A stretch of DNA of 64,000 nucleotides, taken from the NCBI RefSeq assembly GCF_000152705.1, contig NZ_CH672413.1, positions 3,875,046 through 3,939,045 on the forward strand, written 5' to 3'. The translations under genes and the position numbers were made by a program. The first letter of the stretch is position 1; each line of letters starts with the position of its first letter. The notes under the pieces are model-generated. The model worked only from the letters and a program-made list of their open reading frames with translations. It was not told the DNA's origin and ran no database searches. This stretch comes from Janibacter sp. HTCC2649 (GTDB taxonomy: Bacteria; Actinomycetota; Actinomycetes; Actinomycetales; Dermatophilaceae). Positions 535-61,591 of this stretch are shown here, one piece after another.

Positions 535-597
535 GGGTATGCCGGGAGGTGAACTCCCGGCATACCCGGCCCTGTCGTTTCGGTCAGGGGACCGAAA
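535..597 (-). terminator. double hairpin at the 3' end of the peptidoglycan-active protein gene
   Basis: Two perfect stem-loops lie just past the stop at 600. The first is an 8-bp stem (578-585 with 590-597). The second is a 14-bp stem, GGGTATGCCGGGAG at 535-548 pairing with 554-567 around a 5-base loop, followed on the minus strand by a short pyrimidine run. The larger stem contains the over-represented octamer GTATGCCG in both arms. It probably terminates the minus-strand transcript. Confidence 0.7.
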
Positions 598-599
598 GG

Positions 600-1526
600 T
601 CACAGACCCTTGTAGCGCTCCCACCACGTGAACGGCATCCGGTAGGACGTCGGGGTGTTGTCGGCCGAGTGGCTCGCGAGCCCGTTCTTGCCGATGTAGT
701 AGTCGCAGACCTGGTCGCGGGCGACGTGGCCGCCGTCCTTCTGCCAGATGTCGGGGTCAGCGATCGCCACGGCGTGGATGTGATAGCTGAATCCCTGCGC
801 GGGGGTGCGCAGCCAGGCCGCGAAACCGACCGTGCGCAGCGCCTTGACCTGCTGCCAACGCTGGGTCTCGGACAGGCCCGCCACGGAGATGTCGACGACG
901 CCGCCACCATCGTGGGTGCCGGCCGAAGCGCCCACGCCACCGGGGTTGTAGCTGCCCTGGACGAGGCTGAAGTTCCAGCGGGGGAGCAGGTTGTCGGCCG
1001 CCTGGAGCATGTTCTTGGTGCGGGTGTTGACGCGCTTGCCGCCGTAGGAGTCGGTGGTGCTGCCGGCAGTGACCTTGTGCGCGACGGTGAAACGGTTGGC
1101 GCCGAGCTTGGTCAGGGACGTGGGGCCCGGCAGGCCGTTGGCGTCGATGCCGCTGTAGCCGAGCTTGCGCTGCCACGTCGTGTAGGAGCTCGTCGTGCCG
1201 TTGCCGTACCAGCCGTCGGCCGTGGTCGCGATGCCCTTGGCCTTGAGTGCGGACTGCACGCGGATCGTCGAGGTGTTGTCGGACAGGCCGGAGCGCTGGC
1301 CGCAGCGCGGCTCGACCTGGGCGGCCGCGAGGACGCGGGCCATGTCGACGGTCGGCAGGGCCGTGGCCGCAGTGGCCGCCGTGGTGACGGTGTTGTTCGT
1401 GCTGGCCGTGGGCGTCGCGGCGGTCGACGGTGCGGCTGCTGCCACACCGAGCGCAAGGGCGCTCGCGGCGGCGACGGCGAGTGGTGCCGCGACGGCGTGC
1501 CTGCGGCTGATCTTCCGGTGCTTCAT
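600..1526 (-). CDS. secreted peptidoglycan-binding protein with M15-like peptidase domain
   Basis: This 308-residue exported protein starts with a basic stretch and hydrophobic signal peptide (about residues 1-40, AAAAPSTAATP before cleavage) and an Ala/Thr-rich linker. A peptidoglycan-binding-like repeat follows at about 80-140 (VQSALKAKGI, TADGWYGNGT, WQRKLGYSG). The C-terminal half resembles the D-Ala-D-Ala carboxypeptidase/M15 fold: THDGGGVVDI and YHIHAVAI supply the His, Asp and His expected for zinc binding. The start at 1526 has a GGAGGGG ribosome site 6 bases upstream. The open frame extends to 2612, but that part overlaps mtrA and is spurious. It is divergent from mtrA and may belong to the MtrA cell-wall regulon, since MtrA controls peptidoglycan hydrolases in relatives; that is inference. 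Confidence 0.8.
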   Translation of the reverse strand: MKHRKISRRHAVAAPLAVAAASALALGVAAAAPSTAATPTASTNNTVTTAATAATALPTVDMARVLAAAQVEPRCGQRSGLSDNTSTIRVQSALKAKGIATTADGWYGNGTTSSYTTWQRKLGYSGIDANGLPGPTSLTKLGANRFTVAHKVTAGSTTDSYGGKRVNTRTKNMLQAADNLLPRWNFSLVQGSYNPGGVGASAGTHDGGGVVDISVAGLSETQRWQQVKALRTVGFAAWLRTPAQGFSYHIHAVAIADPDIWQKDGGHVARDQVCDYYIGKNGLASHSADNTPTSYRMPFTWWERYKGL

Positions 1527-1627
1527 GGTTTTCCCCTCCATGGTCTGGGCCTGCCCGATGTCTCGAGCCTCACGCCGAGTGGCGTGCCCGGGGCCGAACG
1601 TAGGTCCGCACTGCGGTCCTTGCCCAT

Positions 1628-4150: not shown

Positions 4151-5955
4151 GTTCCGTTGCGCGACAGGCAGAGCCAGACCGTCGCTCGCGCTCTCGCACA
4201 CGCACCGCCCTCGCGATCCTGCTCACGATGGTGAGCATGCTGCTGGTGGGCTGCAGCAGCGTGGGCCGGGCCAGGGAGGCAGAGCCCGGCCTCGAGGTGC
4301 GGGGCGGCGATCCAGAGCCCGTGCGAGCGATCTATCCCCGCCCCGTCGCCGGTGCGACCCAGCAGCAGATCGTGGCCGGCTTCGTCCGGGCCGGTGCCGC
4401 GAGCGATGGCAACTACGAGACCGCTCGCAGCTTCCTCACCCCCGAAGCCGCGAAGTCGTGGGTCGCCGAGGGTGAGATCGTCCTCTACTCCACGACCACG
4501 CCCCTCGTCGTCACGCCGCAGGCGCCCAACGCCGCCGTGCTCAAGGGCGGCATCGAGGGAACCATCGGCACGGACGGTCGCTACATCAACGCGGCGCCGA
4601 CCGCGAGCCGCCAGGTCACCTTCGAGTTCGCCCGCATCAACAACGAGTGGCGCATCAGCAACCTCCCCAAGGAGTTCGGTCGCTGGATCACCACGTCCGA
4701 CCTCGGCCGCCTCCTCAAGCCCTACACGCTCCACTACGTGGCCACCGACCGTCGCTCCCTGGTCCCCGACCGACGGTGGTTCCCGCGCGACCACCTGGCC
4801 ACCCGACTGGCACGCGCCCAGCTCGCCGACCCACCGGCATACCTGCGTGGTGCCGTGCGCAACGACATCCCGCGCGGTTCGCGCCTCACGGCCGACTCGG
4901 TCTCCGTCATCGACGGGATCGCGCGCGTCGAGATCACGGGGAGCGTCCCCACGGCCAAGGTGCAGCGAGAGAACGTCTGGGCCGAACTCGTGTCCACCCT
5001 TCTCCAGGATCCCTCCGTCCAGGGCGTCACCATCCGCGTCCAGGACGTCACGCTCGAGCTTCCCGACGTCGACCTCCCGGTGCGCACGATCGAGCAGGTG
5101 GGCTTCCCGGTGACGCCCGCGCAGGTCCCCGGCAAGCCCGTCGTGCGTCGTGGCGCCTCCCTCTACTTCCTGCCGAGCACGAGTGACGTCGACAAGGACC
5201 CCACCAAGTCCGGGCACCCCGACATCCAGCCCACCTTCCACTCCCTCGCCCTGTCGGCCGACGGCTCGGAGCTGGCGGCGGTGGACCCCGACGGTCAGGG
5301 GATCTCGCGCTTCCGCGGCAAGACGCAGTACGAGATGCCGTTCTTCGGCACCGCCGTCGGCCACCCGACCTACGACACCCGCGGCTACATCTGGGTCGGC
5401 GGCACCGGCATCGATGACGAGTCCAACCTCAGGTTGTGGACCTTCAGCACCGCAGGCGACCCGGCCATCCAGCGCCAGCCGACGGCCAAGCCGGTCGGCG
5501 CCGACTGGCTCGCCAAGCGTCGGGTCATCGAGGTCAAGCCCTCGCCACAGGGGGACCGGGTCGCGGTGCTGCACAGCGCCGAGAACGGGACCGATGCCCG
5601 GATCGACCTCGCCGGCGTCATCCGCACCTCCGCCGGGGAGCCGCAGGGACTGTCCGCCCCCTTGCGCCTCGGGTCCAACCTGACCGAGCCCGCTGGCCTC
5701 GTGTGGCTCTCCGACGTCACGATCGCCACGCTCGCTCGCCGGGCCGGTGGCACGGAGCAGCGGCGCCCCTACGTCATCTCCGTCGACGGTGAGGAGCAGA
5801 CGCTCACCGAGGTGCCCAAGGGTGCTGCCATCACCTCCGCCGGGGGCGAACGCGACATCCTCGTGACCACCACACCCGGCACCGTCCTCAGCCGGGCCGG
5901 ACAGCAGTGGCTCTCGCTCGGCCGCGGCACCGACGTTGCCATCGCCGCCCGCTGA
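4147..5955 (+). CDS. lpqB: lipoprotein LpqB, MtrAB accessory protein
   Basis: 602-residue lipoprotein with an N-terminal basic segment, a hydrophobic core and lipobox LLVGC, predicted to be lipidated on C36. The middle (about 190-300) is the GerMN domain (LVSTLLQDP, VRIQDV-type strands). The C-terminal half is the beta-propeller-like LpqB domain (LALSADGSELAAV, VKPSPQGDRVAVL). In mycobacteria LpqB binds MtrB outside the membrane and tunes MtrA phosphorylation and multidrug tolerance. Its GTG start overlaps the mtrB stop. It ends the mtrA-mtrB-lpqB operon. Confidence 0.96.
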   Translation: MSSVARQAEPDRRSRSRTRTALAILLTMVSMLLVGCSSVGRAREAEPGLEVRGGDPEPVRAIYPRPVAGATQQQIVAGFVRAGAASDGNYETARSFLTPEAAKSWVAEGEIVLYSTTTPLVVTPQAPNAAVLKGGIEGTIGTDGRYINAAPTASRQVTFEFARINNEWRISNLPKEFGRWITTSDLGRLLKPYTLHYVATDRRSLVPDRRWFPRDHLATRLARAQLADPPAYLRGAVRNDIPRGSRLTADSVSVIDGIARVEITGSVPTAKVQRENVWAELVSTLLQDPSVQGVTIRVQDVTLELPDVDLPVRTIEQVGFPVTPAQVPGKPVVRRGASLYFLPSTSDVDKDPTKSGHPDIQPTFHSLALSADGSELAAVDPDGQGISRFRGKTQYEMPFFGTAVGHPTYDTRGYIWVGGTGIDDESNLRLWTFSTAGDPAIQRQPTAKPVGADWLAKRRVIEVKPSPQGDRVAVLHSAENGTDARIDLAGVIRTSAGEPQGLSAPLRLGSNLTEPAGLVWLSDVTIATLARRAGGTEQRRPYVISVDGEEQTLTEVPKGAAITSAGGERDILVTTTPGTVLSRAGQQWLSLGRGTDVAIAAR

Positions 5956-6046: not shown

Positions 6047-6766
6047 ATGCTCTCGGATCTCGTCGACCTCGTCCTCCCGGCGTCGTGCGCGCTCTGCCAC
6101 CGACCCGCCGGCCCGTTGTGCCCGGACTGCCGACGTGCCGTCGACGACTGCCTCCATCCCTCGCCTCGCCTTGCGCTTCCCTCACCCCTCCCACCGGGTA
6201 TGCCGTCGTGCTGGGTTTCCGGGGAAGCGAGCGGAGCGCTGCGCGCGGTCGTCACGGCATACAAGGATGAAAACCGACGGGACCTGCGCCAAACGCTCGG
6301 CGCCTGGCTGGCTCCCGCAATGCGAGCAGCACTGGGAGACAGCGCCCCTGCGCTTCGGGCGATGCGGGGCCGGGGGCTGGTCGTCGTTCCGGTTCCGGGC
6401 TCTCCACGCGCGCGCCGACGACGCGGTGACGTGCCGCTCATGCCCCTCGTGACGTCGGCCGTGGTCGGGCTCGGCGGTTGCGTCGTCGTGGCCGACGTGC
6501 TGTCCGCGACGCGGGTGACCCGCGACCAGTCCACTCTCGACGCGGGGGAGAGGGCGAGCAATCTGGCCGGCGCGATGGCGGTGCGGGCACGTCATCGGCC
6601 GAGCCTCGAAGGCGCGGTCTGCGTCGTCGTCGACGACCTCGTGACGACGGGAGCGACCCTCGCGGAGGCGGCGCGTGCGCTGCGTGAGGCGGGTGCCGGT
6701 GAGGTGCTCAGCGCCGCGATCGGGGCGACGCGCAAGCGCGCCGGGCCTGTCAGGACATTCCCATGA
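6047..6766 (+). CDS. comF: ComF family amidophosphoribosyltransferase-like protein
   Basis: 239-residue ComF homolog. The N-terminus has a four-cysteine zinc motif (C14, C17, C25, C28 in CALC and CPDC). The C-terminal PRTase domain contains the PRPP loop VVVDDLVTTGAT and the preceding VTRDQSTLDAGER segment. ComF proteins are needed for natural transformation, acting with ComFA/PriA on incoming single-stranded DNA, but are also conserved in non-competent bacteria. A GTG at 6023 is possible. I prefer ATG 6047 because it lies 6 bases after CAGGGT, matching the leaderless spacing seen elsewhere. The position between lpqB and hpf is the M. tuberculosis Rv3242c order. Confidence 0.88.
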   Translation: MLSDLVDLVLPASCALCHRPAGPLCPDCRRAVDDCLHPSPRLALPSPLPPGMPSCWVSGEASGALRAVVTAYKDENRRDLRQTLGAWLAPAMRAALGDSAPALRAMRGRGLVVVPVPGSPRARRRRGDVPLMPLVTSAVVGLGGCVVVADVLSATRVTRDQSTLDAGERASNLAGAMAVRARHRPSLEGAVCVVVDDLVTTGATLAEAARALREAGAGEVLSAAIGATRKRAGPVRTFP

Positions 6767-8449: not shown

Positions 8450-9652
8450 ATGATGGGGTCCATGCGACTCAGCACCGTGGCGGCCCGTCGGATCGCGCTC
8501 GCGGCCCAGGGCTTCGGCGTCTCGAAGCCCGAGCCGTGGACCGCGACCTCGCGGCACGTCCAGCGGGTCATCGACACCGTGGGCATCGTGCAGATCGACA
8601 GTGTCAACGTCGTCTCGCGCAGCCACTACCTGCCGTTCTACTCGCGACTCGGGCCGCACGACAGTGCGCTCGTCGACCGGGCGCGTGACCGGGCGCCTCG
8701 TCGCGTGGTGGAGTACTGGGCGCACGAAGCCTCGCTCATCCCGCCGTCGACCTGGCCGCTCCTGGACTTCCGCATGCGCCGTGCCCACGACGAGTCCTGG
8801 GGCGGCATGCAGAGGGTCAAGCGCGAGCACCCCGAGCTCGTCGACGCCGTCCTGGCCGAGGTTGCGGCGAGGGGGCCGATGACGAGCCGCGAGCTCGAGA
8901 TCGCTCTGGCCCACGATCTGCCTCGCGACCGTGAGCAGTGGGGCTGGAACTGGTCGCTGGCGAAGTCAGCACTGGAGCACCTCTTCTGGGCCGGCGAGGT
9001 CAGTTCTGCCGGGCGCACCAGCCAGTTCGAACGTCGGTATGCCGTGCCCTCCCGCGTGCTGCCACCACACCTTCGCGAGCTGGCCGAGTCACCGGCGGCG
9101 CGCCCTTCGGATGAGGATGCGTTCGTCGAGCTGATCCGCATTGCGGCCCGGGCCCACGGTGTGGGTACCCAGCAGTGCCTGCGCGACTACTTCCGGCTCA
9201 AGCCGCACCAGGCCGACCCGGCGATTGCCTCGCTCGTGAAGGCGGGAGAGCTGGAACCGGTGACGATTGAGGGATGGAAGCGGCCGGCATACCTGCATCC
9301 GAGCGCGCGACGACCACGACGGATCTCGGCGCGGGCACTGTTGTCTCCGTTCGATTCGCTGGTGTGGCAGCGGGATCGGACGTCGGCACTGTTCGGATTC
9401 GACTACCGGCTCGAGATCTATGTGCCCGAGGAGAAGCGCGTCCACGGCTACTACGTGCTGCCGTTCCTCCTCGGTGAGGACCTCGTGGCGCGCGTCGACC
9501 TCAAGGCCGACCGAGTCGGTGGGCGGTTGCTCGCGCGACGGGTGACCTGGGAGGCGGGTCGTGGGGGAGTCGACGACTCTCGAGAGCTGCTCGCGGAGCT
9601 CGGGTCCATGGCGTCGTGGCTCGGGCTGTCGAGCGTCGAGGTCCCTGCGTGA
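8450..9652 (+). CDS. winged-helix YcaQ/AlkX-type DNA glycosylase
   Basis: 400-residue member of the HTH_42 (PF06224) family, built from tandem winged helices. Its first helix region contains Q-I-D (VQIDSVNVVSRSHY, residues about 48-50). In the family, Q-x-D marks the YcaQ/AlkX branch, which unhooks DNA interstrand crosslinks, whereas Q-x-Q marks the AlkZ branch. Other conserved stretches are YWAHEASLIP, LSPFDSLVWQRDR and GYYVLPFLLG. ATG 8450 has GGAGGTG 6 bases upstream. The stop overlaps the GTG of the next gene. Function in crosslink repair is inferred from the motif; many homologs are unstudied. Confidence 0.8.
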   Translation: MMGSMRLSTVAARRIALAAQGFGVSKPEPWTATSRHVQRVIDTVGIVQIDSVNVVSRSHYLPFYSRLGPHDSALVDRARDRAPRRVVEYWAHEASLIPPSTWPLLDFRMRRAHDESWGGMQRVKREHPELVDAVLAEVAARGPMTSRELEIALAHDLPRDREQWGWNWSLAKSALEHLFWAGEVSSAGRTSQFERRYAVPSRVLPPHLRELAESPAARPSDEDAFVELIRIAARAHGVGTQQCLRDYFRLKPHQADPAIASLVKAGELEPVTIEGWKRPAYLHPSARRPRRISARALLSPFDSLVWQRDRTSALFGFDYRLEIYVPEEKRVHGYYVLPFLLGEDLVARVDLKADRVGGRLLARRVTWEAGRGGVDDSRELLAELGSMASWLGLSSVEVPA

Positions 9653-10656
9653 GCTGGCTGCCGCGCCTGCCGACCTGGCGTATGCCGTCCGGTCCGGCCG
9701 GTGCCATCACGGACGTTCCCGGGGTGCGGGTGGGGCACGCGACCGTGGTGGACGCGTCCCGCGGTGTCGCGACCGGTGTGACGGTGATCGTTCCGGAGGG
9801 CGTCGAGCAGCGCCCGCTACCGGCGGCGAGTCATGTCATCAACGGTTACGGCAAGTCGGTGGGGCTGATGCAGGTCGACGAGCTCGGCACCCTCGAATCG
9901 GTCATCGCGATGTCGAGTGTCTTTGCCGCGCCCTCCGTCCAGGCGGCGATGCTGCGTCGGCGGCTGGCCGAAGAGGCGGATCTGGGTGGGAGTGCGGGCG
10001 GGCGTTCGGTGAACCTCGTCGTCCTCGAGTGCAATGACGCGTTCGTCAACGACCCGCGCGAACACACCTGCGGTGAGGCCGAACTCGCGACGGCACTCGC
10101 TGCGGCTAGCGATGGAGTGGTGGCCGAGGGGACGGTCGGCGCCGGGACGGGCATGAGGACGTTCGGGCTGTCGGGCGGGTTCGGCACGGCGTCCCGCCTC
10201 CTCGAGACGGGGGAGAGCGCGTATGTCCTGGGTGTCGCGCTCGTGAGCAACTTCGGAGTGTGGGGCGACCTCACTGTCGGCGGTCAGCTGGTCCAGCCGG
10301 CCGCCGAAGCCGTGTCCGACGAGCCGTCGGGATCGGTGGTCATCGTCGTCGCGACCGACGCGCCGTTCGACAGCGCCACCCTGCGCCGGGTCGCGGCTCG
10401 CGCCCAGAACGGGCTGGCCCGCACCGGCTGCGTGACAACTCACGGCAGCGGCGAACTCGTCCTCGCCTTCAGCACCACGACGACCCCCGCCGAGCAGCCG
10501 GAGGTCGGGCTCCTCAACTCAGCCTTCCGCGCAGTGGCCGAGGCCGTCGAGGAAGCCGTCCTCAGCGGACTCGCCGACGCCGCCCCGGTCACGGGTCGCG
10601 AGGGCCGCTGCCTCCCCACCCTCCGCGAGCTGACCCAGCCATTGCCCGGCCCCTGA
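9649..10656 (+). CDS. P1 (S58/DmpA) family aminopeptidase
   Basis: 335-residue P1-family peptidase of the DmpA superfamily, whose members are N-terminal nucleophile hydrolases self-cleaved before a serine. Family blocks visible are GAITDVPGVRVGHAT at the N-terminus, LECNDAFVNDPREHTCGEAE, GTVGAGTGMRTFGLSGG, and the GSVVIVVATDAP block where cleavage is expected (G228-S229). Substrates may be small peptides or beta-aminoacyl compounds. The GTG start overlaps the stop of the glycosylase gene by 3 bases, giving ordinary coupling. It converges on the GNAT gene, with an unusual inverted and tandem repeat between them. Confidence 0.85.
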   Translation: MSWLPRLPTWRMPSGPAGAITDVPGVRVGHATVVDASRGVATGVTVIVPEGVEQRPLPAASHVINGYGKSVGLMQVDELGTLESVIAMSSVFAAPSVQAAMLRRRLAEEADLGGSAGGRSVNLVVLECNDAFVNDPREHTCGEAELATALAAASDGVVAEGTVGAGTGMRTFGLSGGFGTASRLLETGESAYVLGVALVSNFGVWGDLTVGGQLVQPAAEAVSDEPSGSVVIVVATDAPFDSATLRRVAARAQNGLARTGCVTTHGSGELVLAFSTTTTPAEQPEVGLLNSAFRAVAEAVEEAVLSGLADAAPVTGREGRCLPTLRELTQPLPGP

Positions 10657-10824: not shown

Positions 10825-11943
10825 TCAGGGACGGAGGAGTTCCCAGTGGTCGGCGGGGCCGATGGAGCCGTCGGGGGCCTGGGCAGCGGCCTCGTGGCCC
10901 CACTTGGTGAAACCGACCGACGCGAGGATCGCGTTGCTCGCGGCGTTGTCTGCCGCGGTCTCGGCGACGAGACGGCGCAGGCCCATGCCGCCGTCGTCCT
11001 TGCTGGTGAAGGTGTGCTGGACCGCGAGGCGGGAGGCCGTCTTGGCCGCGCCCCGTCCGCGCGCCCGTGGGAACAGGTAGTAGCCGAGCTCAGCAGTGTC
11101 ACTGTCAAGGATCGCTCCACCGTGGACGAAGACGAGGACCTCACCCAATGCCTCATCGGTCGTCGCGTCCGCGATGCACCAGTTGAAGCTCAGCCCGCGT
11201 GCCATGACGAGCCGGCGCCGAAGGAGCCAGTCGTCCCAGGTCTCCGGCGTGGGGATGGCTCCGGCCGGGACGAAGTGTGAGGGGTGGTTTGTCGCCTCGG
11301 CACTCGCCCCGTCCTCCGCGCGCCATGGTCGCAGCCGAATCCCGTCCGCCTCGAGGACCGGGGGAGTGATCCACGCGGCTCGTGGCTCCATCGCGTCCTC
11401 GCGCCCCAGGGTTCCGAACCAGGCGTCGACGAGCCCGCCCTCGCCATGCGCCGCGTGCTCGGGCAGGGTCGTGAGGAAGTCGAAGCCAGCCGCGCGAGCC
11501 GGACCCCACGAGGCGAAGTTGCCGCGCTCGGCGTACCAGTCGACGCGCTGGCCGCCGCCGTCGAACCAGTACTGGCAGACGAGCTTGAGTGCCCGTGCCA
11601 TGAGGCCGCGCCCGCGACCCTCGGGGTGCAGGCCGTAGCCGATCTCGGCGCGCCCCGCCGCCCGCGGACGCAGGTCGATCGTCCCGAGGAACAACCCATC
11701 GCCACCCCCCACAGTGATCTCTTCGATGGCCCAGAGCTGGTCGCCGCCCTCGTCCCAGCCCTTGGCGATGGCGGGGATCCACTCGCGGGCCATCTCGACG
11801 GTGTAGCCGCGCGGGACCTGGGTCCACCGCACGCTCTCGGAGTCGGTGCACTGCTCGACGATGCGGTCGACGTCGCGCTCGTTGTGTGCGCGAAGGCGCA
11901 CCACACCATCGGTGAGGATCGGGACGGAGTCTGGGAACGGCAT
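10825..11943 (-). CDS. tandem GNAT acetyltransferase
   Basis: 372 residues made of two GNAT folds. Domain 1 (about 8-175) has the RimJ-like start [13 protein letters not shown] and an acetyl-CoA loop [20 protein letters not shown]. Domain 2 (about 200-372) starts [10 protein letters not shown] and carries [18 protein letters not shown] and an [18 protein letters not shown] motif. Both halves retain the Q/RxxGxG/A acetyl-CoA signature, so both could be active on small molecules or protein N-termini. The substrate is unknown. It starts at ATG 11943 and is divergent from secA. Confidence 0.85.
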
Positions 11944-12124
11944 ACCCGAATGTCATCACGAAGGCGGACAGCCCGGAACCGAATTACCCGAGCCCCTCGT
12001 TGGAGAGCGATGGAGTGCCGTATCAGATGTGGCCTCGCCGTTTGGCTCGACTACCCTTGGCAGGTCTCGTGGAGTGCCAGTGGGACAGCCGAGTGACACA
12101 TTGCATGAACGAGGAGTCCTACCC

Positions 12125-15004
<2,880 letters not shown>

Positions 15005-15033: not shown

Positions 15034-15579
15034 TCAGCCGATCTGGAGGGCTTCGACGCGCCAGCGACCGTCCTGACCGCTGAGGCGCAGCGCCATGGCC
15101 CGCACGCGCACACCCTCACTCACGACGACGCTGCATTCGGCGACGCCGTCGGCGGGCTCGCACACGTGGACCGAGCGCACCACGGCGCGCTGGGTGACGG
15201 CGCGAGTCCTGGCTGCCCGGCGCCGAGCTGCCAGGGCGCCGCGTCGGGCGATCACGGCATACACCTGCGGTGTCGTCCAACGGACGACCTGCGGCGCCGG
15301 GCGCAGACCGGACATGACCTCGACGATGGCCTGCGCGATCTGGCCTGCCCACGGCTCGGGGTCGGGGAGGTCGGAACGGGACGTGCTCTGGGGCCCGAAG
15401 ATCTGCTCGTCGCTCGCGTGCGCGAGGTCCACGGCCAAGGAATCCTGGATGTATGCCGGGTGGCCGAGTTCGTCGCCCGACCTCCGGAGCGCTTCGGCCA
15501 GGGGGATGGCTGGTGGGCGCGTCGTCACGGGTGCGTGGACCTTGACGGACCGGAGGTGGGAGATGGTCGTGGGGCTCAT
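15034..15579 (-). CDS. Rv3235-like conserved protein
   Basis: 181-residue protein of the small actinobacterial Rv3235/DUF6459 type found near secA. It has an N-terminal disordered part, a predicted helix (WAGQIAQAIVEVMSGLRP), and strands around APQVVRWTTPQVYAVIARR and SVVVSEGVRVRAMALRL, ending in RWRVEALQIG. The fold resembles a small alpha/beta ligand-binding or NTF2-like domain, but function is not established. The ATG at 15579 overlaps the stop of the LysM gene (ATGA), so the two are co-translated. It converges on secA. Confidence 0.75.
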   Translation of the reverse strand: MSPTTISHLRSVKVHAPVTTRPPAIPLAEALRRSGDELGHPAYIQDSLAVDLAHASDEQIFGPQSTSRSDLPDPEPWAGQIAQAIVEVMSGLRPAPQVVRWTTPQVYAVIARRGALAARRRAARTRAVTQRAVVRSVHVCEPADGVAECSVVVSEGVRVRAMALRLSGQDGRWRVEALQIG

Positions 15580-17541: not shown

Positions 17542-18219
17542 ATGAGCGACCTGCCCCATCCCACAGCCCAACGGCTGCGCAAGCCGTCGTGGCGCGACAG
17601 CCGTCTCCTCATCGGGCTGCTGCTCGTCCTCGCCTCCACGGCCATCGGTGCCTACGCCATGAGCCGCGCCGACGACCGTGTCCCGATGTATGCCGCGAAG
17701 GCCGGCCTGATGGCCGGCCAGCCGCTCACCTCCGAGGACGTCGTCCGGGTCGACGCGCAGCTCGGTGATGCGGGACGCGACTACCTCAGCGCGGAGGGAG
17801 GTCTGCCCGCGCAGTTCTTCGTGCTGCGGGAGGTGCGCGCCGGCGAGCTCATCCCGATGAGTGCCGTCGGGCCACGCGACAAGGCCACCGCCCAACCGGT
17901 CACCCTCCAGGTCGACGCGACCTCGGCGTCCACGCTGCAGGCCGGGTCGGTGGTCGACGTCTACGTCAACCGTCCGGCTGCGCCGGTGAAGGGTTCGGTC
18001 GGGTCAACGGACTTCGCCGGCCCCAACCTCGCTCTTGAGGGCGTCACGGTCGTGGGCCTGTCACAGGACGACAACGTCATGGGAGGTGCCGGGGACACGC
18101 GCCCCGTCCAGGTCATGGTGCCCAAGGACAAGGTGCAGACCCTGGTGGGTGACGTCGACCTCGGCGCCAAGATCACCCTCGTCGCCGTGCCCGGCGCAGT
18201 GGCGCCCAAGACCTCATGA
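17542..18219 (+). CDS. SAF-domain protein (CpaB/RcpC-like)
   Basis: 225 residues: a short cytoplasmic N-terminus, one transmembrane segment (about 22-42, LLIGLLLVLASTAIGAYAM), then a SAF domain (YAAKAGLMAGQPLTSEDVV) and a C-terminal beta region (VTLQVDATSASTLQAGSVVDVYV). CpaB/RcpC proteins of this architecture assist Tad/Flp pilus secretion by interacting with the secretin or the wall. Pairing with a CpaE-like ATPase supports a Tad-like role, but no pilin, TadA or TadB genes lie nearby. Its stop overlaps the next ATG (ATGA). Confidence 0.75.
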   Translation: MSDLPHPTAQRLRKPSWRDSRLLIGLLLVLASTAIGAYAMSRADDRVPMYAAKAGLMAGQPLTSEDVVRVDAQLGDAGRDYLSAEGGLPAQFFVLREVRAGELIPMSAVGPRDKATAQPVTLQVDATSASTLQAGSVVDVYVNRPAAPVKGSVGSTDFAGPNLALEGVTVVGLSQDDNVMGGAGDTRPVQVMVPKDKVQTLVGDVDLGAKITLVAVPGAVAPKTS

Positions 18220-21777: not shown

Positions 21778-23409
<1,632 letters not shown>

Positions 23410-38309: not shown

Positions 38310-38315
38310 ACGGGC

Positions 38316-47172: not shown

Positions 47173-48591
47173 TCAGGTGAGGCCGCGGGCGAGGGCGCGG
47201 ACCGCAGCGTCCGCGTGGGACTCGGACAGGCCGGCATACCCAATGACGAGTCCGCGGCGCACCGCCTCGACGCAGTAGGCCGACAGCGGGTTGACCGACA
47301 CCCCGTGGCGCAGGAGGGTCATCGACACCTCGTGGTCGTCGACGTCATCGGGCAGGAGCAACACGACGTGCAACCCCGCGTCGACGCCGCTGAGCCGATG
47401 GTCCGGCAGGTGACGTGCCAGGGCGGCGACGAGCCGAGCCCGGCGAGCGGCATACGTTCGGGCAGCCCGAGCGTGGTGCGCGGCCAGCGAACCGTTGGCG
47501 ATGAACTCGGCGACAGCCTCGCCGGTCATCTCGTTGACGATGAGGCTGCGGCGTTCGAGCTCGACCCGGACCGCCTCGCGAAGATGCTTCGGCGGCGCCA
47601 GCCACGAGACGCGCAGGGTGGGCACCAGGATCTTGGACGCCGTGCCGATGTAGAGGACGTGGTCGTCGGCGCCCTCGAGCGAACGCAGTGCAGGCAGTGG
47701 CGACACGTCGTAGCGGAACTCGCCGTCGTAGTCGTCCTCGATGATGAGCCCGTCCGCGGCCCGCGCCCATTCGAGCAGGGCCGTGCGCCGGGCGACGGGC
47801 ATGCGAGCGCCCAGGGGGTACTGGTGCGACGGGGTGACGTAGACCGCGGCATCGCGGCGGCGAAGCGTCGATGGATCGAGCCCGTCCTCGTCGACCGGCA
47901 GGGCAGAGATGCGAGATCCGTTGTCGGAGAACGCTGTCCACGCCTCAACGTAGCCCGGATCCTCGACAGCGACGGTTCGCCCCACGAGCCCGAGCGCGGC
48001 CGGCAGGGCCTGCAGTGTGGCGCTCACGCCGGGGGTGATGAGGAGGTCGTCGGGTTCCAGGGCGATGCCCCGGCTTCGACGGATGTGGTCGGTGAGCACC
48101 TGGCGCAGTCGCACGTGTTGTGGTCCGTGGCTGATGTCGGTCGTGGGGACCTGGGACGCGGCATGGCGCCACGCCCGCCGCCAGGCCGCCTGGTCGAGGA
48201 AGCCGATGTCCGGTCGCCCGGGACGCAGGTCGAACCGGGCCTGGGATCGGGCGGGACGAGGCGGGCCGGTGGGGAACGGCTCCATCGGATCGACCGACGA
48301 CAGGGCGCCGGCTCGCGCTGCGCGATCGGCTCCCGCAGCGATCGCCGCTCCCGAACCCGGTCGCGTCTCGATGAAACCGGCTGCCGCCAACTCGTCGTAT
48401 GCCGCGACGACCGGTCCCCGGGACACCTTCAGTTCCGTAGCGAGCACGCGGGTCGAGGGGAGCGGGTCGCCCGGTCGCAGCCGGCCCTCGCGCAGCTCGC
48501 CGACGATGGCGTCGGCGATGCGGTGTCGCAGCGGGCGATCGGAGGCGTCGAGGAGGAGAGCCATGCTGGCGGTGCGGGGAGGGCGGGGCAC
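47173..48591 (-). CDS. MocR/PdxR-type GntR regulator with aminotransferase domain
   Basis: 472 residues. An N-terminal GntR winged helix (about 10-80: LRHRIADAIVGELREGRLRPG and LATELKVSRGPVVAAYDEL) is fused to a fold-type-I aminotransferase domain. The PLP lysine lies in IGTASKILVPTLRVSW, and DDYDGEFRY is the usual MocR block. MocR proteins bind PLP or an aldimine and regulate divergent genes for vitamin B6 or amino-acid metabolism. GTG 48591 is 6 bases after TATTCT; ATG 48564 is the alternative. The divergent PPOX-fold gene is the likely target. Confidence 0.88.
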   Translation of the reverse strand: MPRPPRTASMALLLDASDRPLRHRIADAIVGELREGRLRPGDPLPSTRVLATELKVSRGPVVAAYDELAAAGFIETRPGSGAAIAAGADRAARAGALSSVDPMEPFPTGPPRPARSQARFDLRPGRPDIGFLDQAAWRRAWRHAASQVPTTDISHGPQHVRLRQVLTDHIRRSRGIALEPDDLLITPGVSATLQALPAALGLVGRTVAVEDPGYVEAWTAFSDNGSRISALPVDEDGLDPSTLRRRDAAVYVTPSHQYPLGARMPVARRTALLEWARAADGLIIEDDYDGEFRYDVSPLPALRSLEGADDHVLYIGTASKILVPTLRVSWLAPPKHLREAVRVELERRSLIVNEMTGEAVAEFIANGSLAAHHARAARTYAARRARLVAALARHLPDHRLSGVDAGLHVVLLLPDDVDDHEVSMTLLRHGVSVNPLSAYCVEAVRRGLVIGYAGLSESHADAAVRALARGLT

Positions 48592-49310: not shown

Positions 49311-50308
49311 CCCACGTTTCCGGAGTTGGCTCCTGGCCCGGCGAGTCGTCGCGCGAGGCCATCATCACGGTCCGCGACCTGCTCACCGATGTCGAAGGAC
49401 TCGGCCTGCCGTACCTGCCCGAACTGCCCTCTCGCGGTCCGGGCGCTGACATCATCGGTCGTTCCGCGGCGCTGCTCGCGGACCTGTCTGTGGACCTCCA
49501 GCCCTCGGGCTGGCGCTTCACCGATCGCCCGGGTCGCGACATGCTCCGCGCTCGCGCCCACCTCCGACAGGACCTCGATGAGCTCGCCGAGGCCTACGAC
49601 GGGTATGCCGGCCCGCTCAAGATCCAGGTCGCCGGGCCGTGGACGCTCGGGGCGTCCATCGAGCTCAACCGGGGGGAGCGCTCGCTCACGGATGGGGGTG
49701 CGCGACGCGACCTCGTCGGATCGCTCGCCGAGGGCGTGCGCCGCCACATCGCCGACGTGCAGCGGCTCGTTCCCGGCGCGGTCATCACGGTTCAGCTCGA
49801 CGAGCCGTCGGTCGTGTCCGTCCTGCGCGGCGAGCTGCCGACAGCGTCCGGCTACGGACGCGTTCGTGCGGTCGACCGCGTGGAGGTGGCACGCGGCATA
49901 CAGGACGTTCGCGAAGCGCATGACGGCGACGTCGTCCTGCACTCGTGCCACCCCGCAGCCCCGGTGGAGCTGCTCGCGGCCACGGGCGTCACCGCCCTCG
50001 CGCTCGACCTCACCGAGTCGTCACCGCAGCGTTGGGAGGCGATCGCCGAGGCCGTCGAGTCCGGCACTCGCCTCTGGGCAGGGGTCGTGCCGACGACGGC
50101 CGTCACCTCGTCGGCGGACGCGGTCCGGACCGCCACCGCCCTTGTCCTGGACGGCTTCTCACGCGTCGGACTTCCGACCTCGTCGCTCGCCGATGTCACC
50201 GTGACACCGACGTGCGGACTTCCCTCACTCACACCCCGGGGGGCCGTGGACGTTCAACGGGTGGCGATCGCTGTCGCCGCCGAGTTGACCGAGAAGGAGA
50301 ACGACTGA
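49307..50308 (+). CDS. MetE-like (UROD/MetE superfamily) protein
   Basis: 333 residues resembling the C-terminal catalytic barrel of cobalamin-independent methionine synthase (M. tuberculosis Rv3015c type). It begins THVSGVGSWPG. Zinc-type ligands are in VLHSCHP and VTPTCGLPSL, and a DEPSVV segment lies mid-protein, but it lacks the N-terminal MetE domain, so full methionine synthesis is unlikely. The substrate is unknown. Coupled to both neighbours by start/stop overlaps. In mycobacteria the ortholog lies just upstream of ligA, as it does here after an inserted region. Confidence 0.8.
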   Translation: MTHVSGVGSWPGESSREAIITVRDLLTDVEGLGLPYLPELPSRGPGADIIGRSAALLADLSVDLQPSGWRFTDRPGRDMLRARAHLRQDLDELAEAYDGYAGPLKIQVAGPWTLGASIELNRGERSLTDGGARRDLVGSLAEGVRRHIADVQRLVPGAVITVQLDEPSVVSVLRGELPTASGYGRVRAVDRVEVARGIQDVREAHDGDVVLHSCHPAAPVELLAATGVTALALDLTESSPQRWEAIAEAVESGTRLWAGVVPTTAVTSSADAVRTATALVLDGFSRVGLPTSSLADVTVTPTCGLPSLTPRGAVDVQRVAIAVAAELTEKEND

Positions 50309-52882: not shown

Positions 52883-53032
52883 GATGTGTGGCTCCTTTGC
52901 CGTGATGTGTTGCTCGCCATTGTGGTCCGTGCACCGATCCCTTGGGGCGGAAGGTGATGTGCAAGCCTCAGCGCGGGCGGCATACGCGAGCGGAGCGGTC
53001 CACAGCCACCCAGTGTGCGAAGGCACTGTCGA

Positions 53033-54525: not shown

Positions 54526-56966
54526 GCCAGTTGTCGCAGCGGCCGTCCGACGCCGCCGTGGGCCGGTCCCTGCGGCACGAGTCCGCGGGGCTGCACGTCA
54601 CCGGTCGGGCGCTCTACACCGACGACCTCCACCCGCGCACCAAGGATGTGCTGCACGCCTGGCCCGTGCAGGCGCCGCACGCGCACGCTCGCATCACAGC
54701 GCTCCGGGTGCAACCGGCATACGCCGTTCCGGGAGTCGTGCGCGTGCTGACCGCGAAGGACGTTCCCGGCATCAATGACGCCGGCATCAAGCACGATGAG
54801 CCGCTCTTCCCGAGCGAGGTGTCCTTCCACGGCCACGCGGTCTGCTGGGTGCTCGGTGAGAGTCTCGAGGCCGCCCGTCGCGGGTCCCTCGCCGTGGAGG
54901 TCGACTACGAGCCGCTCCCGTCGATCATCACGCTGGCCGAGGCGATCGACGCCGAAAGCTTCCAAGGGGCTCAGCCCACCATCCGCCGGGGGGATGCGCA
55001 GGCAGCGCTCGAGCGGTCGGCCCACGTCTTCCACGGCGAGATCGAGCTCGCCGGCCAGGAGCACTTCTACCTCGAGACGCACGCTGCGCTGGCCACCGTC
55101 GAGGACGACGGCCGCATCTTCGTGCAGAGCAGCACCCAGCACCCGACCGAGACCCAGGAGATCGTCGCCCACGTCCTCGGCCTGAGCAGCAACCAGGTCA
55201 CCGTCCAGTGCCTGCGCATGGGCGGCGGTTTCGGTGGCAAGGAGATGCAACCGCACGGGTATGCCGCGATCGCGGCTCTCGGGGCGACGCTCACCGGCCG
55301 CCCCGTTCGCCTGCGGCTCAACCGAACCCAGGACCTCACGATGTCGGGCAAGCGCCACGGATTCCACGCGCAGTGGCGCGTCGGCTTCGACGAGGGGGGT
55401 CTCCTGCAGGGGCTCGAGGCGACGTTGACCTCCGACGGCGGCTGGAGCCTGGACCTGTCGGAACCCGTGCTCGCGCGAGCGCTGTGCCACGTCGACAACA
55501 ACTACTGGATTCCTGACATCCGGGTCACCGGTCGGGTCGCCCGCACCCACAAGACGTCGCAGACCGCCTTCCGTGGCTTCGGTGGACCGCAGGGGATGCT
55601 CGTGATCGAGGACATCCTCGGTCGGTGCGCGCCCCTGCTCGGCATCGAGCCCCACGAGCTGCGACGCCGCAACTTCTACGAGGACGGTCAGACCACGCCG
55701 TACGGCCAGCTCATCACCCAGGCCGAGCGGGTGCAGCGCGCGTGGGAGCAGGTCGCCGTGAATGCAGACCTCGTCCGCCGCCGGGTCGAGATCGCGGAGT
55801 TCAACGCAACGCACGAGCACGTCAAGAGGGCGGTGGCGGTCACACCGGTCAAGTTCGGGATCTCCTTCAACCTCACGGCCTTCAATCAGGCCGGGGCCCT
55901 CGTGCACGTCTACAAGGACGGGTCGGTGCTCATCAACCACGGTGGCACCGAGATGGGTCAGGGCCTGCACACCAAGATGCTCCAGGTCGCGGCAACCGCG
56001 CTGGGCGTGCCCCTCGACATCGTGCGGCTCGCACCCACCCGCACCGACAAGGTGCCAAACACCTCGGCGACCGCGGCGTCATCGGGGACCGACCTCAACG
56101 GCGGAGCGGTCAAGAACGCCTGTGAGCAGCTCCGCGGCCGACTCGCCGAGGTGGCCGCCCAGCGCCTGGGCGTGCCGGCCTCGGACGTGCGCTTCGTCGA
56201 TGGAACCGTCTCCGGGTCCGGCACCGATGAGACCGTGTCGTGGGCGCTCCTGGTCCACGCGGCCTACTTCGCGCGGATCCAGCTCTTCGCGGCCGGCTAC
56301 TACCGCACCGAGGGGCTGCACTGGGATTCCACCGTCATGCAGGGCAGCCCGTTCAAGTACTTCGCGCACGGGGTCGCCGCGACGGAGGTCGAGGTCGACG
56401 GCTTCACGGGCGCCCACCGCACCCTGCGCGTCGACATCGTCCACGACGTCGGCGACAGCCTGTCGCCGTTGGTTGACATCGGTCAGATCGAGGGCGCCTA
56501 CGTCCAGGGGGCGGGGTGGCTCACCCTTGAGGACCTGCGCTGGGAGACCGGTGACGGTGAGCACCGAGGCCGCCTGGCCACCGCATCCGCCAGCACCTAC
56601 AAGCTGCCGAGCCTCTCCGAGATGCCCGAGGTCTTCAACGTCGATCTGCTCGCGCGCGCTCACGAGGAGGGTGCCGTCTACGGATCCAAGGCCGTCGGGG
56701 AGCCGCCCCTCATGTTGGCCTTCGCGGTCCGAGAGGCGCTGCGCCAGGCCTGCGCGGCCTTCGGTCCCGAGGGCACGAGCGTTGACCTGCCGAGCCCGGC
56801 GACCCCCGAGGCGGTGTTCTGGGCACTGCAGGACGCCCGGGCCGGGCACGACCCGGACCACGAGGTCGCGCCGGGCGCGGGACCCACCCCACCGGAGGCC
56901 GACCCGACAGCGCCCACCCGACACCCGGAGTCCGAGTCCGCCCTGCAGCGCCTCTCGGAGGCATGA
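54522..56966 (+). CDS. xdhB: xanthine dehydrogenase molybdopterin-binding subunit
   Basis: 814-residue large subunit holding the molybdenum cofactor. It begins RSLRHESAGLHVTGRALYTDDL. Cofactor-contact blocks are RMGGGFGGKEMQ, TAFRGFGGPQGM and NHGGTEMGQGLHTKMLQVA. The catalytic Glu is in KAVGEPPLMLA near the C-terminus. A Pro/Glu-rich tail closes the protein. Purine specificity is inferred from the xdhC partner and the EPPL motif, but related aldehyde oxidases share these. GTG 54522 overlaps xdhA. Confidence 0.94.
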   Translation: MSQLSQRPSDAAVGRSLRHESAGLHVTGRALYTDDLHPRTKDVLHAWPVQAPHAHARITALRVQPAYAVPGVVRVLTAKDVPGINDAGIKHDEPLFPSEVSFHGHAVCWVLGESLEAARRGSLAVEVDYEPLPSIITLAEAIDAESFQGAQPTIRRGDAQAALERSAHVFHGEIELAGQEHFYLETHAALATVEDDGRIFVQSSTQHPTETQEIVAHVLGLSSNQVTVQCLRMGGGFGGKEMQPHGYAAIAALGATLTGRPVRLRLNRTQDLTMSGKRHGFHAQWRVGFDEGGLLQGLEATLTSDGGWSLDLSEPVLARALCHVDNNYWIPDIRVTGRVARTHKTSQTAFRGFGGPQGMLVIEDILGRCAPLLGIEPHELRRRNFYEDGQTTPYGQLITQAERVQRAWEQVAVNADLVRRRVEIAEFNATHEHVKRAVAVTPVKFGISFNLTAFNQAGALVHVYKDGSVLINHGGTEMGQGLHTKMLQVAATALGVPLDIVRLAPTRTDKVPNTSATAASSGTDLNGGAVKNACEQLRGRLAEVAAQRLGVPASDVRFVDGTVSGSGTDETVSWALLVHAAYFARIQLFAAGYYRTEGLHWDSTVMQGSPFKYFAHGVAATEVEVDGFTGAHRTLRVDIVHDVGDSLSPLVDIGQIEGAYVQGAGWLTLEDLRWETGDGEHRGRLATASASTYKLPSLSEMPEVFNVDLLARAHEEGAVYGSKAVGEPPLMLAFAVREALRQACAAFGPEGTSVDLPSPATPEAVFWALQDARAGHDPDHEVAPGAGPTPPEADPTAPTRHPESESALQRLSEA

Positions 56967-59824: not shown

Positions 59825-61136
59825 CTACGCGTCCCACCTGTTGCCCCTCGCCACGGTGGCCACGGCGTGGGCCGAGGCAGGCGAGCGGGTCGTCGTCGCC
59901 ACGGGCCCCGCGACGGACGCGATCGTGCGCAGGTTCGGCTTCGAGCGCGAGCACCTCCAGCTCGGGCGCGGATCCAACCCCGGCGTCATCCGCGCCGAGG
60001 ACCAGCCGAGCGGCGAGGACGACGCCTTGCGAGGGTTCTTCGACGCGACCCGCCTCGGGGCCGTCCCGACCCTCGCGTTCCAGGCGGCAGCCCGCGGAGC
60101 AGACCTGCTCTGGGAGCCGCTGCGGGTCGCCCGCGAGGTGCACCGCGTCGTGGAGCGGGTGCAGCCCGACCACGTCATCGTCGACCACCTCGCCTTCAGC
60201 GCCCGTCTGGGTCTCACCGGGGCGGGGGTGCGGCACGCCGACGTCGTCCTGGGCCACCCGTCCGCGCTGACCGTGGGCGACGAGGTCTACGGCTACCCGC
60301 CGGCCTGGCCCCGGCGCCTCCAACCGACCCGTACCTCTCTCGTCGACCTCCGGCGCCAGTGCGAGGGCGTGCGCGACGTCTTCACGCACGAGTGGAACAC
60401 GGTGCTTGCCGCCCTCGACCCGGGAGCGCCCGCCAGCGAGGACGCCTTCGCGCAGACGGGCGATCTCCTGCTCCTCAACTACCCCGGCGAGCTGCATCCT
60501 CCCGAGCGCACGGCACTGCTGAGCCCGCACGCCTTCCTCGGTTCCGCCGTCCGCACCGAGGAGCCCGACGCGGAGGTGGACGCCTGGCTGGCGCGCCACG
60601 ACGGGCCGATCGTCTACGTGAGCCTCGGCAGTTTCCTCTCGGTGCGGTCGGACGTGCTGGGCCGCATCGCGCAGGCCCTGAGAGGCATGGACGTGCGGGT
60701 CGCCCTGGCCGCCGGGTCGACGTCGCGTGACGCACTGGGCCCCATCCCGCCGTCGTGGCTGGTCCGGGCCGAGCTTCCTCAGCCCACGCTGCTGGAGCGC
60801 GCCGTGCTCGCGGTGTCCCACGGAGGCAACAACAGCGTCACCGAGGCGTTGACCGCGGGCGTGCCGCTGCTGCTCCTGCCGATGTCGACCGACCAGTTCG
60901 CCGGCGCTGCCTCGCTCGAGACGGCCGGACTGGCGGAGGCGCTCGACCCGAACTCGGCCACCCCCGAGGAACTGCGAGCCGCCGCCGAACGACTCCTCTC
61001 CTTGGACCCCGACATCTCAGCCCGCCTCGCCCGGTTGTCCGGGGAGCTCACCCGCACCTCGGGTGCGCAACGGGCCAGAGCGGCGATGCTCGCCGTGAGC
61101 GAGGATCCGGAGCCGGTCATACACTCCCGCGTGTGA
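59799..61136 (+). CDS. GT1 (UDP-glycosyltransferase-like) glycosyltransferase
   Basis: 445-residue GT-B glycosyltransferase of the MGT/GT1 type. It begins TLLVISPDYASHLLPLATVA. The C-terminal donor domain shows PIVYVSLGSFLSVR, LPQPTLLERAVLAVSHGGNNSVTEAL and GVPLLLLPMSTDQFAGA. The first Asn after HGG replaces the Gly usual in macrolide transferases. Acceptor and sugar are unknown. GTG 59799 follows CGGAGG and overlaps the upstream GT4 gene, suggesting a shared glycoconjugate. It overlaps the DinB gene by 4 bases. Confidence 0.85.
   Translation: MTLLVISPDYASHLLPLATVATAWAEAGERVVVATGPATDAIVRRFGFEREHLQLGRGSNPGVIRAEDQPSGEDDALRGFFDATRLGAVPTLAFQAAARGADLLWEPLRVAREVHRVVERVQPDHVIVDHLAFSARLGLTGAGVRHADVVLGHPSALTVGDEVYGYPPAWPRRLQPTRTSLVDLRRQCEGVRDVFTHEWNTVLAALDPGAPASEDAFAQTGDLLLLNYPGELHPPERTALLSPHAFLGSAVRTEEPDAEVDAWLARHDGPIVYVSLGSFLSVRSDVLGRIAQALRGMDVRVALAAGSTSRDALGPIPPSWLVRAELPQPTLLERAVLAVSHGGNNSVTEALTAGVPLLLLPMSTDQFAGAASLETAGLAEALDPNSATPEELRAAAERLLSLDPDISARLARLSGELTRTSGAQRARAAMLAVSEDPEPVIHSRV
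61120..61125 (+). promoter_or_regulatory. -10-like TACACT before the DinB gene
   Basis: TACACT lies 7 bases before the GTG at 61133, inside the end of the upstream gene. This could allow independent leaderless expression of the DinB-fold protein. Confidence 0.35.
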
Positions 61137-61591
61137 TCAGCATCGACGAATACCTCACCTTCTGTGACCGGTCCCTGGACGGGTATGCCGCGTGCGTGCG
61201 TGAGTTGGGCGATGCTCACGTCAACCGTTCGCTCACCGGTGTGGAGGGCTCGAACTCCGCCTTCGCGCTCGTGGCCCACGTCGTCGGGGTCATGGGTCGT
61301 TGGGGTCGCACCGTGAACCGAGGCATCGTCGTCCCACGCGATCGTGACGCGGAGTTCACGTCGACCGGGACGGTCGAGGAGGCCCTCGCACTCCTCGCGT
61401 TAGGGCGCGCGCGGCTGCACGAGGATGCCCACGCAGCAGACCTTGGGGCACCGCCGGCGAACCCGCCCAGCGGACGGGACCGGACGGCATACGCGACGCA
61501 GGGAGCCGTTCTTCTGCACGTCCACGAGGAACTGGCCCAACACCTCGGCCACCTCGAGGTCACCCGAGACGTCCTTCTCGCCTCGGGCTGA
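61133..61591 (+). CDS. DinB/mycothiol-dependent maleylpyruvate isomerase-like protein
   Basis: 152-residue four-helix DinB-fold protein (MDMPI_N/DUF664 type). The metal-binding histidines sit in FALVAHVVGV and the C-terminal HVHEELAQHLGHLEVTRDV helix. Members use bacillithiol or mycothiol as cofactor for transfers or isomerisation. Here the substrate is unknown. GTG 61133 overlaps the glycosyltransferase stop by 4 bases. Confidence 0.8.
   Translation: MISIDEYLTFCDRSLDGYAACVRELGDAHVNRSLTGVEGSNSAFALVAHVVGVMGRWGRTVNRGIVVPRDRDAEFTSTGTVEEALALLALGRARLHEDAHAADLGAPPANPPSGRDRTAYATQGAVLLHVHEELAQHLGHLEVTRDVLLASG

Follow-up and report, generated by a model that had tools for sequence, protein, structure and literature searches.

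A putative DNA uptake sequence, with related words among its relatives, in the chromosome of Janibacter sp. HTCC2649

The non-palindromic octamer GTATGCCG was found 2,982 times in the genome of Janibacter sp. HTCC2649 (1,486 plus-strand and 1,496 minus-strand copies), a density of about one per 1.4 kb, as compared to 59 copies (35 and 24 by strand) of the reversed word used as a control. In slightly different forms from genus to genus, the word occurs thousands of times per chromosome in many related actinobacteria. We regard it, with good confidence, as a putative DNA uptake sequence (DUS) of Gram-positive bacteria, kept by biased uptake through a machine of Tad, ComEA and ComEC proteins.

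Abundance, placement and maintenance of the octamer

The window, the whole 64,000-nt stretch of DNA analysed, contained 42 exact copies of GTATGCCG (19 plus, 23 minus), against 2.3 expected from composition, in line with the value of about 2 given in the initial annotation, and 1.0-1.6 expected from Markov models of order 2-3. That annotation recognized the abundance of the word correctly, but its count of 41 overlooked the minus-strand copy at 4835, and two of its positions (31491 and 61495) are corrected below; all others were right. The features of the window are as follows.

531..571, no strand, hairpin with 18-pair stem containing an inverted GTATGCCG pair, predicted terminator-like (522-582 folds at -45.7 kcal/mol, with a z of -7.7)
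537..544, plus, GTATGCCG, left hairpin arm
558..565, minus, GTATGCCG, right hairpin arm
4835..4842, minus, GTATGCCG, overlooked earlier
6198..6205, plus, GTATGCCG, intergenic, opposed pair with 6255
6255..6262, minus, GTATGCCG, intergenic, opposed pair with 6198
9037..9044, plus, GTATGCCG
9285..9292, minus, GTATGCCG
9680..9687, plus, GTATGCCG
11938..11945, minus, GTATGCCG
13405..13412, plus, GTATGCCG
15255..15262, minus, GTATGCCG
15451..15458, plus, GTATGCCG
17688..17695, plus, GTATGCCG
19115..19122, minus, GTATGCCG
21350..21357, plus, GTATGCCG
22175..22182, minus, GTATGCCG
24327..24334, minus, GTATGCCG
24460..24467, plus, GTATGCCG
25944..25951, minus, GTATGCCG
27456..27463, minus, GTATGCCG
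29047..29054, plus, GTATGCCG
31481..31488, plus, GTATGCCG, intergenic (formerly 31491)
38304..38311, minus, GTATGCCG, intergenic
38416..38423, minus, GTATGCCG
38519..38526, plus, GTATGCCG
39092..39099, plus, GTATGCCG
39787..39794, minus, GTATGCCG
39958..39965, minus, GTATGCCG
41801..41808, plus, GTATGCCG
42791..42798, minus, GTATGCCG, intergenic
44969..44976, plus, GTATGCCG
45485..45492, minus, GTATGCCG
47232..47239, minus, GTATGCCG
47448..47455, minus, GTATGCCG
48397..48404, plus, GTATGCCG
49603..49610, plus, GTATGCCG
49894..49901, minus, GTATGCCG
52978..52985, minus, GTATGCCG, intergenic
54715..54722, minus, GTATGCCG
55259..55266, plus, GTATGCCG
61183..61190, plus, GTATGCCG
61485..61492, minus, GTATGCCG (formerly 61495)

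A 464 kb sample of the same genome, made up of the window and 20 spaced 20-kb stretches, held 330 copies where 2.6-5.5 were expected (motif masked). The 8-mer is sharply defined. Its 24 single-base variants summed to 297 against about 216 expected, and among 8-mers above set count cut-offs the word ranked first both in ratio to and in excess over a Markov-2 model. Over-representation on both strands and a balanced orientation had been claimed from the window; both hold genome-wide, the former more strongly than claimed. Two outcomes had been named as speaking against the claim, a genome-wide frequency near expectation and a complete explanation by codon pairs, and neither was borne out. No longer repeat is shared around the copies and flank preferences are weak. 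Replichore skew was absent (65/77 and 75/71) when two sets of ten spaced stretches were compared without locating the origin itself.

Neighbouring copies are arranged non-randomly. Within 60 bp of each other, 23 inverted neighbours were observed against 5.7 when positions were drawn uniformly at random (at most 14 in 1,000 draws), and direct neighbours numbered 2 against 5.8. Some copies lie between genes or inside hairpins, as had been reported; examples are the copy at 31481 and the pair 537/558, whose hairpin has a terminator-like predicted fold.

The initial annotation suggested selection on the word as DNA rather than as protein. Codon context, the density in non-coding DNA and conservation between genomes all confirm this, and the word overrides codon choice. 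In the 464 kb sample, 248 of the 330 copies lay inside genes and 81 were non-coding, yet the density was 1.6 per kb in non-coding and 0.6 per kb in coding DNA, a 2.7-fold difference. Most copies are indeed TAT-GCC or GCA-TAC codon pairs (200/330), but all six reading frames are used. The disfavoured codon TAT was chosen for 124 of 137 tyrosines in G-TAY-GCC-G contexts and for 0 of 19 where only the base after GCC differed. Likewise, GCA was found in 74 of 113 CG-GCN-TAC contexts and in only 3 of 185 cases where the two bases before GCN-TAC were not CG. Of 81 sites aligned between Knoellia-group genomes, 70 were conserved where 20 were expected, in comparisons that are not independent of one another.

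Related words in the family and mobile DNA

At a threshold of at least 150 copies per Mb, GTATGCCG was present in 81 of 149 family genomes, representing 30 of 53 genera, and in 0 of 229 genomes from 19 other families of the same order. One-base variants, GGATGCCG, GAATGCCG and GTATGACG, were abundant in relatives. Because an apparently codon-driven background already gives GGATGCCG some 240-1,240 copies in a genome, only strong excesses count, such as the 3,816-3,949 copies in each of three genomes and the 2,099-4,480 copies in four genomes of genus g58; two dialects coexist in one genome of that genus. In genome G047 GGATGCCG showed a non-coding excess and 13 inverted pairs (196 kb), while its non-coding excess was hardly detectable in G024 and absent in G009. 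Its status as a dialect in G009 (1,336 copies) and G150 (1,210) is doubtful. GAATGCCG reached 3,135 copies in G020, and GTATGACG 1,954 in G048, 1,557 in G011 and 834 in G012; no non-coding excess of GTATGCCG was seen in G011 or G012. Otherwise motif-rich genera include genomes without the word (G089 in g39, G142 in g49). The family's related words, roughly GNATGNCG, most likely represent a set of DUS dialects.

A further word, GTACGCCG, appeared dialect-like in 20 kb of G061 but was rejected; over 196 kb its non-coding density was lower than its coding density, and it is therefore read as a codon-pair word. The same word in G069 was rejected by likeness to G061 only.

One mobile element was clearly poor in the motif. 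A conjugative element of about 94 kb elsewhere in the genome, selected after its gap showed in the genome-wide copy list, carried 8 copies in 93.7 kb where 66 were expected. The IS110 in the window (transposase gene 62134-63345) does lack the word, as had been stated; its absence from 1.2 kb proves nothing alone, and the conjugative element says more.

Competence genes and the proposed uptake system

The genome of the window encodes comEC, a Tad cluster and a comEA whose product carries HhH and SLBB domains, although the TadE match falls below its cut-off. The four ATPase loci above the cut-off resemble Tad clusters, not a ComP-type pilus. Of the 149 family genomes, 145 have ComEC and 142 match a Tad-type ATPase. 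Both are equally present in genomes where no motif was found; the genes therefore do not follow the motif in their distribution, and absence of ComEC or Tad was rejected as a cause of motif absence. A DUS system need not show such tracking, as relatives may be competent and yet have no word. No clear receptor determinant was seen by eye across dialects in TadE-like proteins (21/25 loci) or the ComEA HhH domain (19/20 loci).

From these observations we infer natural competence of these species, biased uptake and the nature of a receptor. A competence surface protein, either a Tad/Flp pilus subunit such as a TadE-like protein or ComEA, would prefer DNA carrying the motif; the bound DNA would be handed to ComEA/ComEC and then recombined into the chromosome. 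Because kin fragments with the motif would be preferentially imported, mutated sites would be repaired and new ones would spread, and thus the word would build up to its present density wherever proteins and terminators allow, while mobile DNA moving by other routes would remain motif-poor. As receptor specificity drifted, the dialect would follow. It seems likely that this self-recognizing system evolved independently in monoderm actinobacteria, via the Tad pilus, and that its GNATGNCG dialects split, mixed and vanished within one family.

Micrococcus luteus belongs to the same order, Micrococcales. Excerpts of two papers describe its transformation as requiring tad genes (PMC4322843) and its competence as involving ComEA/ComEC along with them (PMC4322843, PMC6370729), a likeness in another actinobacterium; in contrast to the GTATGCCG bacteria, an uptake word is not mentioned for it in these two papers, in which the terms 'uptake sequence' and 'sequence-specific' do not occur.

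The USS of Pasteurellaceae, also an abundant uptake word, shares with GTATGCCG flank preferences that are weak and lie about one helical turn from the word, but the word is unrelated and its hosts are Gram-negative. For its receptor, PMC12616744 gives the minor pilin ComN as a prediction. Closer is the DUS of Neisseriaceae, by which bacteria such as Neisseria tell their own DNA from other DNA in natural transformation, and for which excerpts of PMC3630211 give 943-5,918 copies, eight dialects and inverted pairs in all DUS genomes. Both systems have a short non-palindromic word present roughly one thousand to six thousand times, inverted pairs that lie in hairpins, dialects that keep a common core from one related genus to the next, some relatives without the word and, for the DUS according to PMC7371117, an atypical distribution in conjugative elements. 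The words themselves are unrelated, the shared core being ATG in the GTATGCCG family and not CTG, and here the hosts are monoderm, Tad/Flp genes stand in place of a ComP-bearing type IV pilus, and a role in uptake is predicted.

The literature describes self-specific uptake words for two Gram-negative families (PMC12616744, PMC10526031), and a 2023 paper states that none had been reported for mycobacteria (PMC10526031). Among the best matches listed from one open-access library (without bioRxiv and most subscription journals), no paper dealt with such a sequence for Actinobacteria, Intrasporangiaceae or Knoellia, and of 643 matches to the letters of GTATGCCG, the best 15 were unrelated by title. 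If the uptake reading is true, an independent actinobacterial case would mean that uptake words arise repeatedly, and at least 30 genera of a single family would be predicted to be naturally competent. Genetic engineers would gain a transformation tag for these bacteria, and the several dialect switches could be used to find the receptor by co-variation.

Alternative explanations

Among the functions offered by the initial annotation, an uptake signal fits best; methylation is retained as a rival, with no association for the one methyltransferase family examined, and both the inverted pairs and the lack of skew speak against a skewed or Chi-like organizer. The rival that survives best, though improbable, is a HIP1-like word, created or maintained by DNA methylation or methylation-guided repair: a methyltransferase would recognize it, and repair or selection would enrich it. 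Excerpts of PMC4390886 describe cyanobacterial HIP words as abundant, replaced by others in some lineages and accompanied by cognate methyltransferases; GTATGCCG is similarly abundant and replaced, and has potentially methylatable adenines on both strands. HIPs, however, are palindromic, unlike GTATGCCG. A search for N6_N4_Mtase (PF01555) matched nothing in the window's genome, and this family showed no association with the motif: it was matched in 2 of the 11 genomes that carry the motif or a dialect and in 4 of the 8 that lack a clear motif. Nor would inverted pairing and one-base dialects be expected of a methylation word.

Much less probable is a Chi-like or other recombination or repair hotspot read by a helicase-nuclease. 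A non-palindromic 8-mer, found genome-wide and sparse in one mobile element, would suit it, but Chi in E. coli shows a replication-strand bias that GTATGCCG lacks, inverted pairing and non-coding excess are left unexplained, and for dialects to arise a core recombination enzyme would have had to alter its specificity from one related genus to another. We give as little credence to a site where a nucleoid protein binds for chromosome organization or segregation: the word is spread over the whole chromosome, about once per 1.4 kb, yet the 20 spaced stretches revealed no orientation pattern, and the genomes without the word in g39 and g49 make an essential organizer unlikely. A REP-like element, either a dispersed repeat or a terminator, that had spread by copying would account for the copies in hairpins, but the predominance of copies inside genes, the weak flank preferences and the lack of a longer shared repeat render it very remote. 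Tyr-Ala/Ala-Tyr codon-pair usage, for all that it matches most copies, is of negligible probability and was rejected on non-coding density and flank-dependent codon choice, as disfavoured codons dominate only where both flanks complete the 8-mer. A word read as a codon-pair word, GTACGCCG in G061, is by contrast denser in coding than in non-coding DNA.

Abundance of GTATGCCG and selection on DNA

Exact copies of GTATGCCG number 42 in the window (19 forward, 23 reverse), where Markov models of order 2-3 predict 1.0-1.6, and none of its single-base variants shows a comparable excess there. The abundance reported in the initial annotation stands, although its count of 41 does not and two of its coordinates were off by ten. 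In 464 kb of the same genome, 330 copies were found versus 2.6-5.5 expected with the motif masked; the 24 one-base variants examined there sum to 297 versus about 216 expected. Genome-wide, 1,486 forward and 1,496 reverse copies were counted; the control, GTATGCCG read backwards, occurred 35 and 24 times, respectively. Each of 20 sampled 20-kb stretches held 11-19 copies, gaps between copies were near random (coefficient of variation 0.96), and two groups of ten stretches each did not differ in orientation (65/77 versus 75/71).

Coding frames for the 330 copies in 464 kb were assigned by a codon-score model. Non-coding DNA (50.6 kb) held 81 copies, or 1.6 per kb, as compared to 248, or 0.6 per kb, in coding DNA (413 kb); one further copy straddled a boundary. 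Sorted by frame, the coding copies fell into six classes of 126, 74, 21, 19, 6, and 2. Tyrosine was encoded by TAT in 124 of 137 G-TAY-GCC-G contexts and in 0 of 19 where only the base after GCC was changed; across ten other tyrosine contexts the TAT share was 6-38%, and only classes of 8-42 codons exceeded 18%. GCA encoded alanine in 74 of 113 CG-GCN-TAC contexts and in 3 of 185 where the two preceding bases were not CG. In eight pairwise alignments among six loci from Knoellia and same-genus genomes, 70 of 81 motif sites were identical versus 20 expected from background 8-mer conservation, these alignments not being independent (two pairs were counted in both directions); identity in the flanks was near background. 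Codon context, non-coding density, and site conservation together bear out the earlier proposal that selection acts on the DNA and not on protein.

Flank preferences are weak and present in several frame classes: of 329 copies, 174 have G at the second base upstream, just 11 have A directly downstream, and 123 have T at the eleventh base downstream. Neighbors within 60 bp were in opposite orientation 23 times versus 5.7 at random (maximum 14 in 1,000 uniform trials, which ignore non-coding clustering) and in the same orientation twice versus 5.8; the 23:2 ratio is independent of the uniform-placement model. The forward copy came first in 17 of the 23 inverted pairs. Among 29 neighbor pairs less than 80 bp apart, 19 were opposed with both copies non-coding. 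The one pair that was folded (window 522-582) gave an 18-pair stem at 531-571 (-45.7 kcal/mol, z -7.7). In Neisseriaceae, every genome with a dialect of the DNA uptake sequence (DUS) is reported to contain inverted pairs (PMC3630211).

Distribution and dialects among relatives

By cut-offs of our own choice, GTATGCCG reached at least 150 copies per Mb in 81 of 149 family genomes (own included), 40-150 in 15, and fewer than 40 in 53; 30 of 53 genera had at least one genome above 150 and 18 had only genomes below 40. All nine surveyed genomes of the window's genus, its own included, were strong, and two genomes of otherwise strong genera lacked the word (G089 in g39, G142 in g49). Among 229 genomes from 19 other families of the order, surveyed for GTATGCCG only and with the counts read by eye, none reached 150 per Mb. 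Genome G023, with 1,142 copies overall, had 8 in 36 kb (L035, L108), at 1.71 per kb non-coding versus 0.03 coding.

Three Knoellia loci of about 21 kb each held 14, 19, and 20 copies, and a Phycicoccus locus (L161) fewer than 3 in 21 kb. The conserved Tad ATPase of the window's genome had its best named matches in Knoellia subterranea, K. sinensis, and K. remsis (71-74%); identity to eight same-genus genomes spanned a comparable 70-80%. This one protein and the motif suggest that the genome may belong to Knoellia, which is classified in Intrasporangiaceae, Micrococcales.

Relatives carry variants of the word, here treated as candidate dialects. GGATGCCG, with a baseline of about 240-1,240 copies per genome, rose to 3,816 in G024, 3,838 in G085, and 3,949 in G047; 196 kb of G047 held 193 copies versus 16-21 expected, at 2.57 per kb non-coding versus 0.71 coding, with 13 inverted pairs. 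Two further words were counted in 14 genomes chosen from the 149. GAATGCCG occurred 3,135 times in G020 (1.28 per kb non-coding versus 0.61 coding in 70 kb), 12-352 times in the 13 others, and 99 times in the window's genome. GTATGACG occurred 1,954 times in G048, 1,557 in G011, and 834 in G012, as compared to 13-597 in the 11 others and 35 in the window's genome; since GTATGGCG and, less so, GTATGTCG were also raised in those three, the dialect there reads roughly GTATGNCG. GTATGCGG was raised in G123 (11 versus 0.6 expected in 36 kb). In genus g58, two genomes carried both words (GTATGCCG 1,217 and 1,189; GGATGCCG 2,195 and 2,099) and two mainly GGATGCCG (4,480 and 3,619, with GTATGCCG at 361 and 288), possibly a dialect switch in progress.

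A non-coding excess of GTATGCCG was absent in G011 (0.31 versus 0.65 per kb coding) and G012 (0.73 versus 0.84), and that of GGATGCCG was unconvincing in G024 (0.85 versus 0.76) and G009 (0.47 versus 0.47). As a dialect of G061, GTACGCCG was rejected because it reads as a codon-pair word, an outcome indicating that the non-coding test discriminates.

The first 20 kb of the GGATGCCG-dialect genome G122 (L059, G122:C1:1-20000) held 13 GTATGCCG and 2 GGATGCCG, with 361 and 4,480 genome-wide; this start may have been imported recently or may reflect the assembly. Words unrelated to the motif were also over-represented in single 20-kb stretches: GAAGGGGG in L049 of G059 (23 copies versus 1.3 expected), and several 8-mers, e.g. 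CAGTTCGA and CCCTCCTA, strongly so in L043 (G044) and L051 (G062), perhaps as local repeats.

Putative uptake machinery and motif-poor mobile DNA

In the window's genome, a ComEA gene (HHH_3, SLBB) adjoins a ComEC gene (Competence, Lactamase_B), and four secretion-ATPase loci above the cut-off are Tad-cluster-like by layout, including:
G000:C1:3859001-3877000 (L118, its end within the window), Tad/Flp-like pilus cluster immediately upstream of the window, containing two Flp-like genes that resemble each other
L119, Tad-like locus with a Flp-like gene (DUF4244), a TadE-like gene (below the Pfam cut-off), and a Tad-family gene

The tad genes are required for transformation of M. luteus (PMC4322843), and Tad/ComEA/ComEC uptake machinery is plausible here from gene content. 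ComEC was present in 145 of 149 family genomes and a conserved Tad ATPase match (E <= 1e-50, the weakest maybe paralogues) in 142, with and without the motif alike, so presence of the machinery does not explain the motif's distribution. Word specificity, if machinery-based, would have to lie in a variable part; TadE-like proteins appear variable, the ComEA HhH domain much less so, and this comparison singled out no receptor.

In the anatomical respects tested, uneven non-coding excess apart, GTATGCCG is like a Neisseriaceae DUS; we regard it as a candidate for that functional class, one that would work in like manner. Full-text searches of an open-access library, several of them giving just the highest-ranked part of a longer list, showed no published uptake word in Actinobacteria among the papers listed. 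Molecular drive via biased uptake would account for the remaining features, including the repair of mutated sites. Were GTATGCCG instead a methylation site, a Chi site, or a chromosome organiser, the inverted pairs or the dialects would be left unexplained.

Genome-wide positions of GTATGCCG show a gap near 142-239 kb, and the word is absent from the window's IS110 gene, as the first reading had it:
G000:C1 about 144,000-237,700 (L121, L138-L140, and the first 15.7 kb of L141; limits set by eye), motif-poor region of ~94 kb
Window 62134-63345, reverse strand, IS110-family transposase gene

The region holds 8 copies in 93.7 kb versus 66 expected. In Neisseriaceae, conjugative elements have been detected from atypical DUS distributions (PMC7371117). 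The region here is probably an integrated conjugative element, whose scarcity of motifs biased uptake would likewise explain. Its genes include, by Pfam, a TrwC-type relaxase, a TraG/VirD4-type coupling protein, and a tyrosine integrase and, by eye, metal-resistance-like and insertion-sequence-like genes; it also carries a Tad-like cluster of its own.
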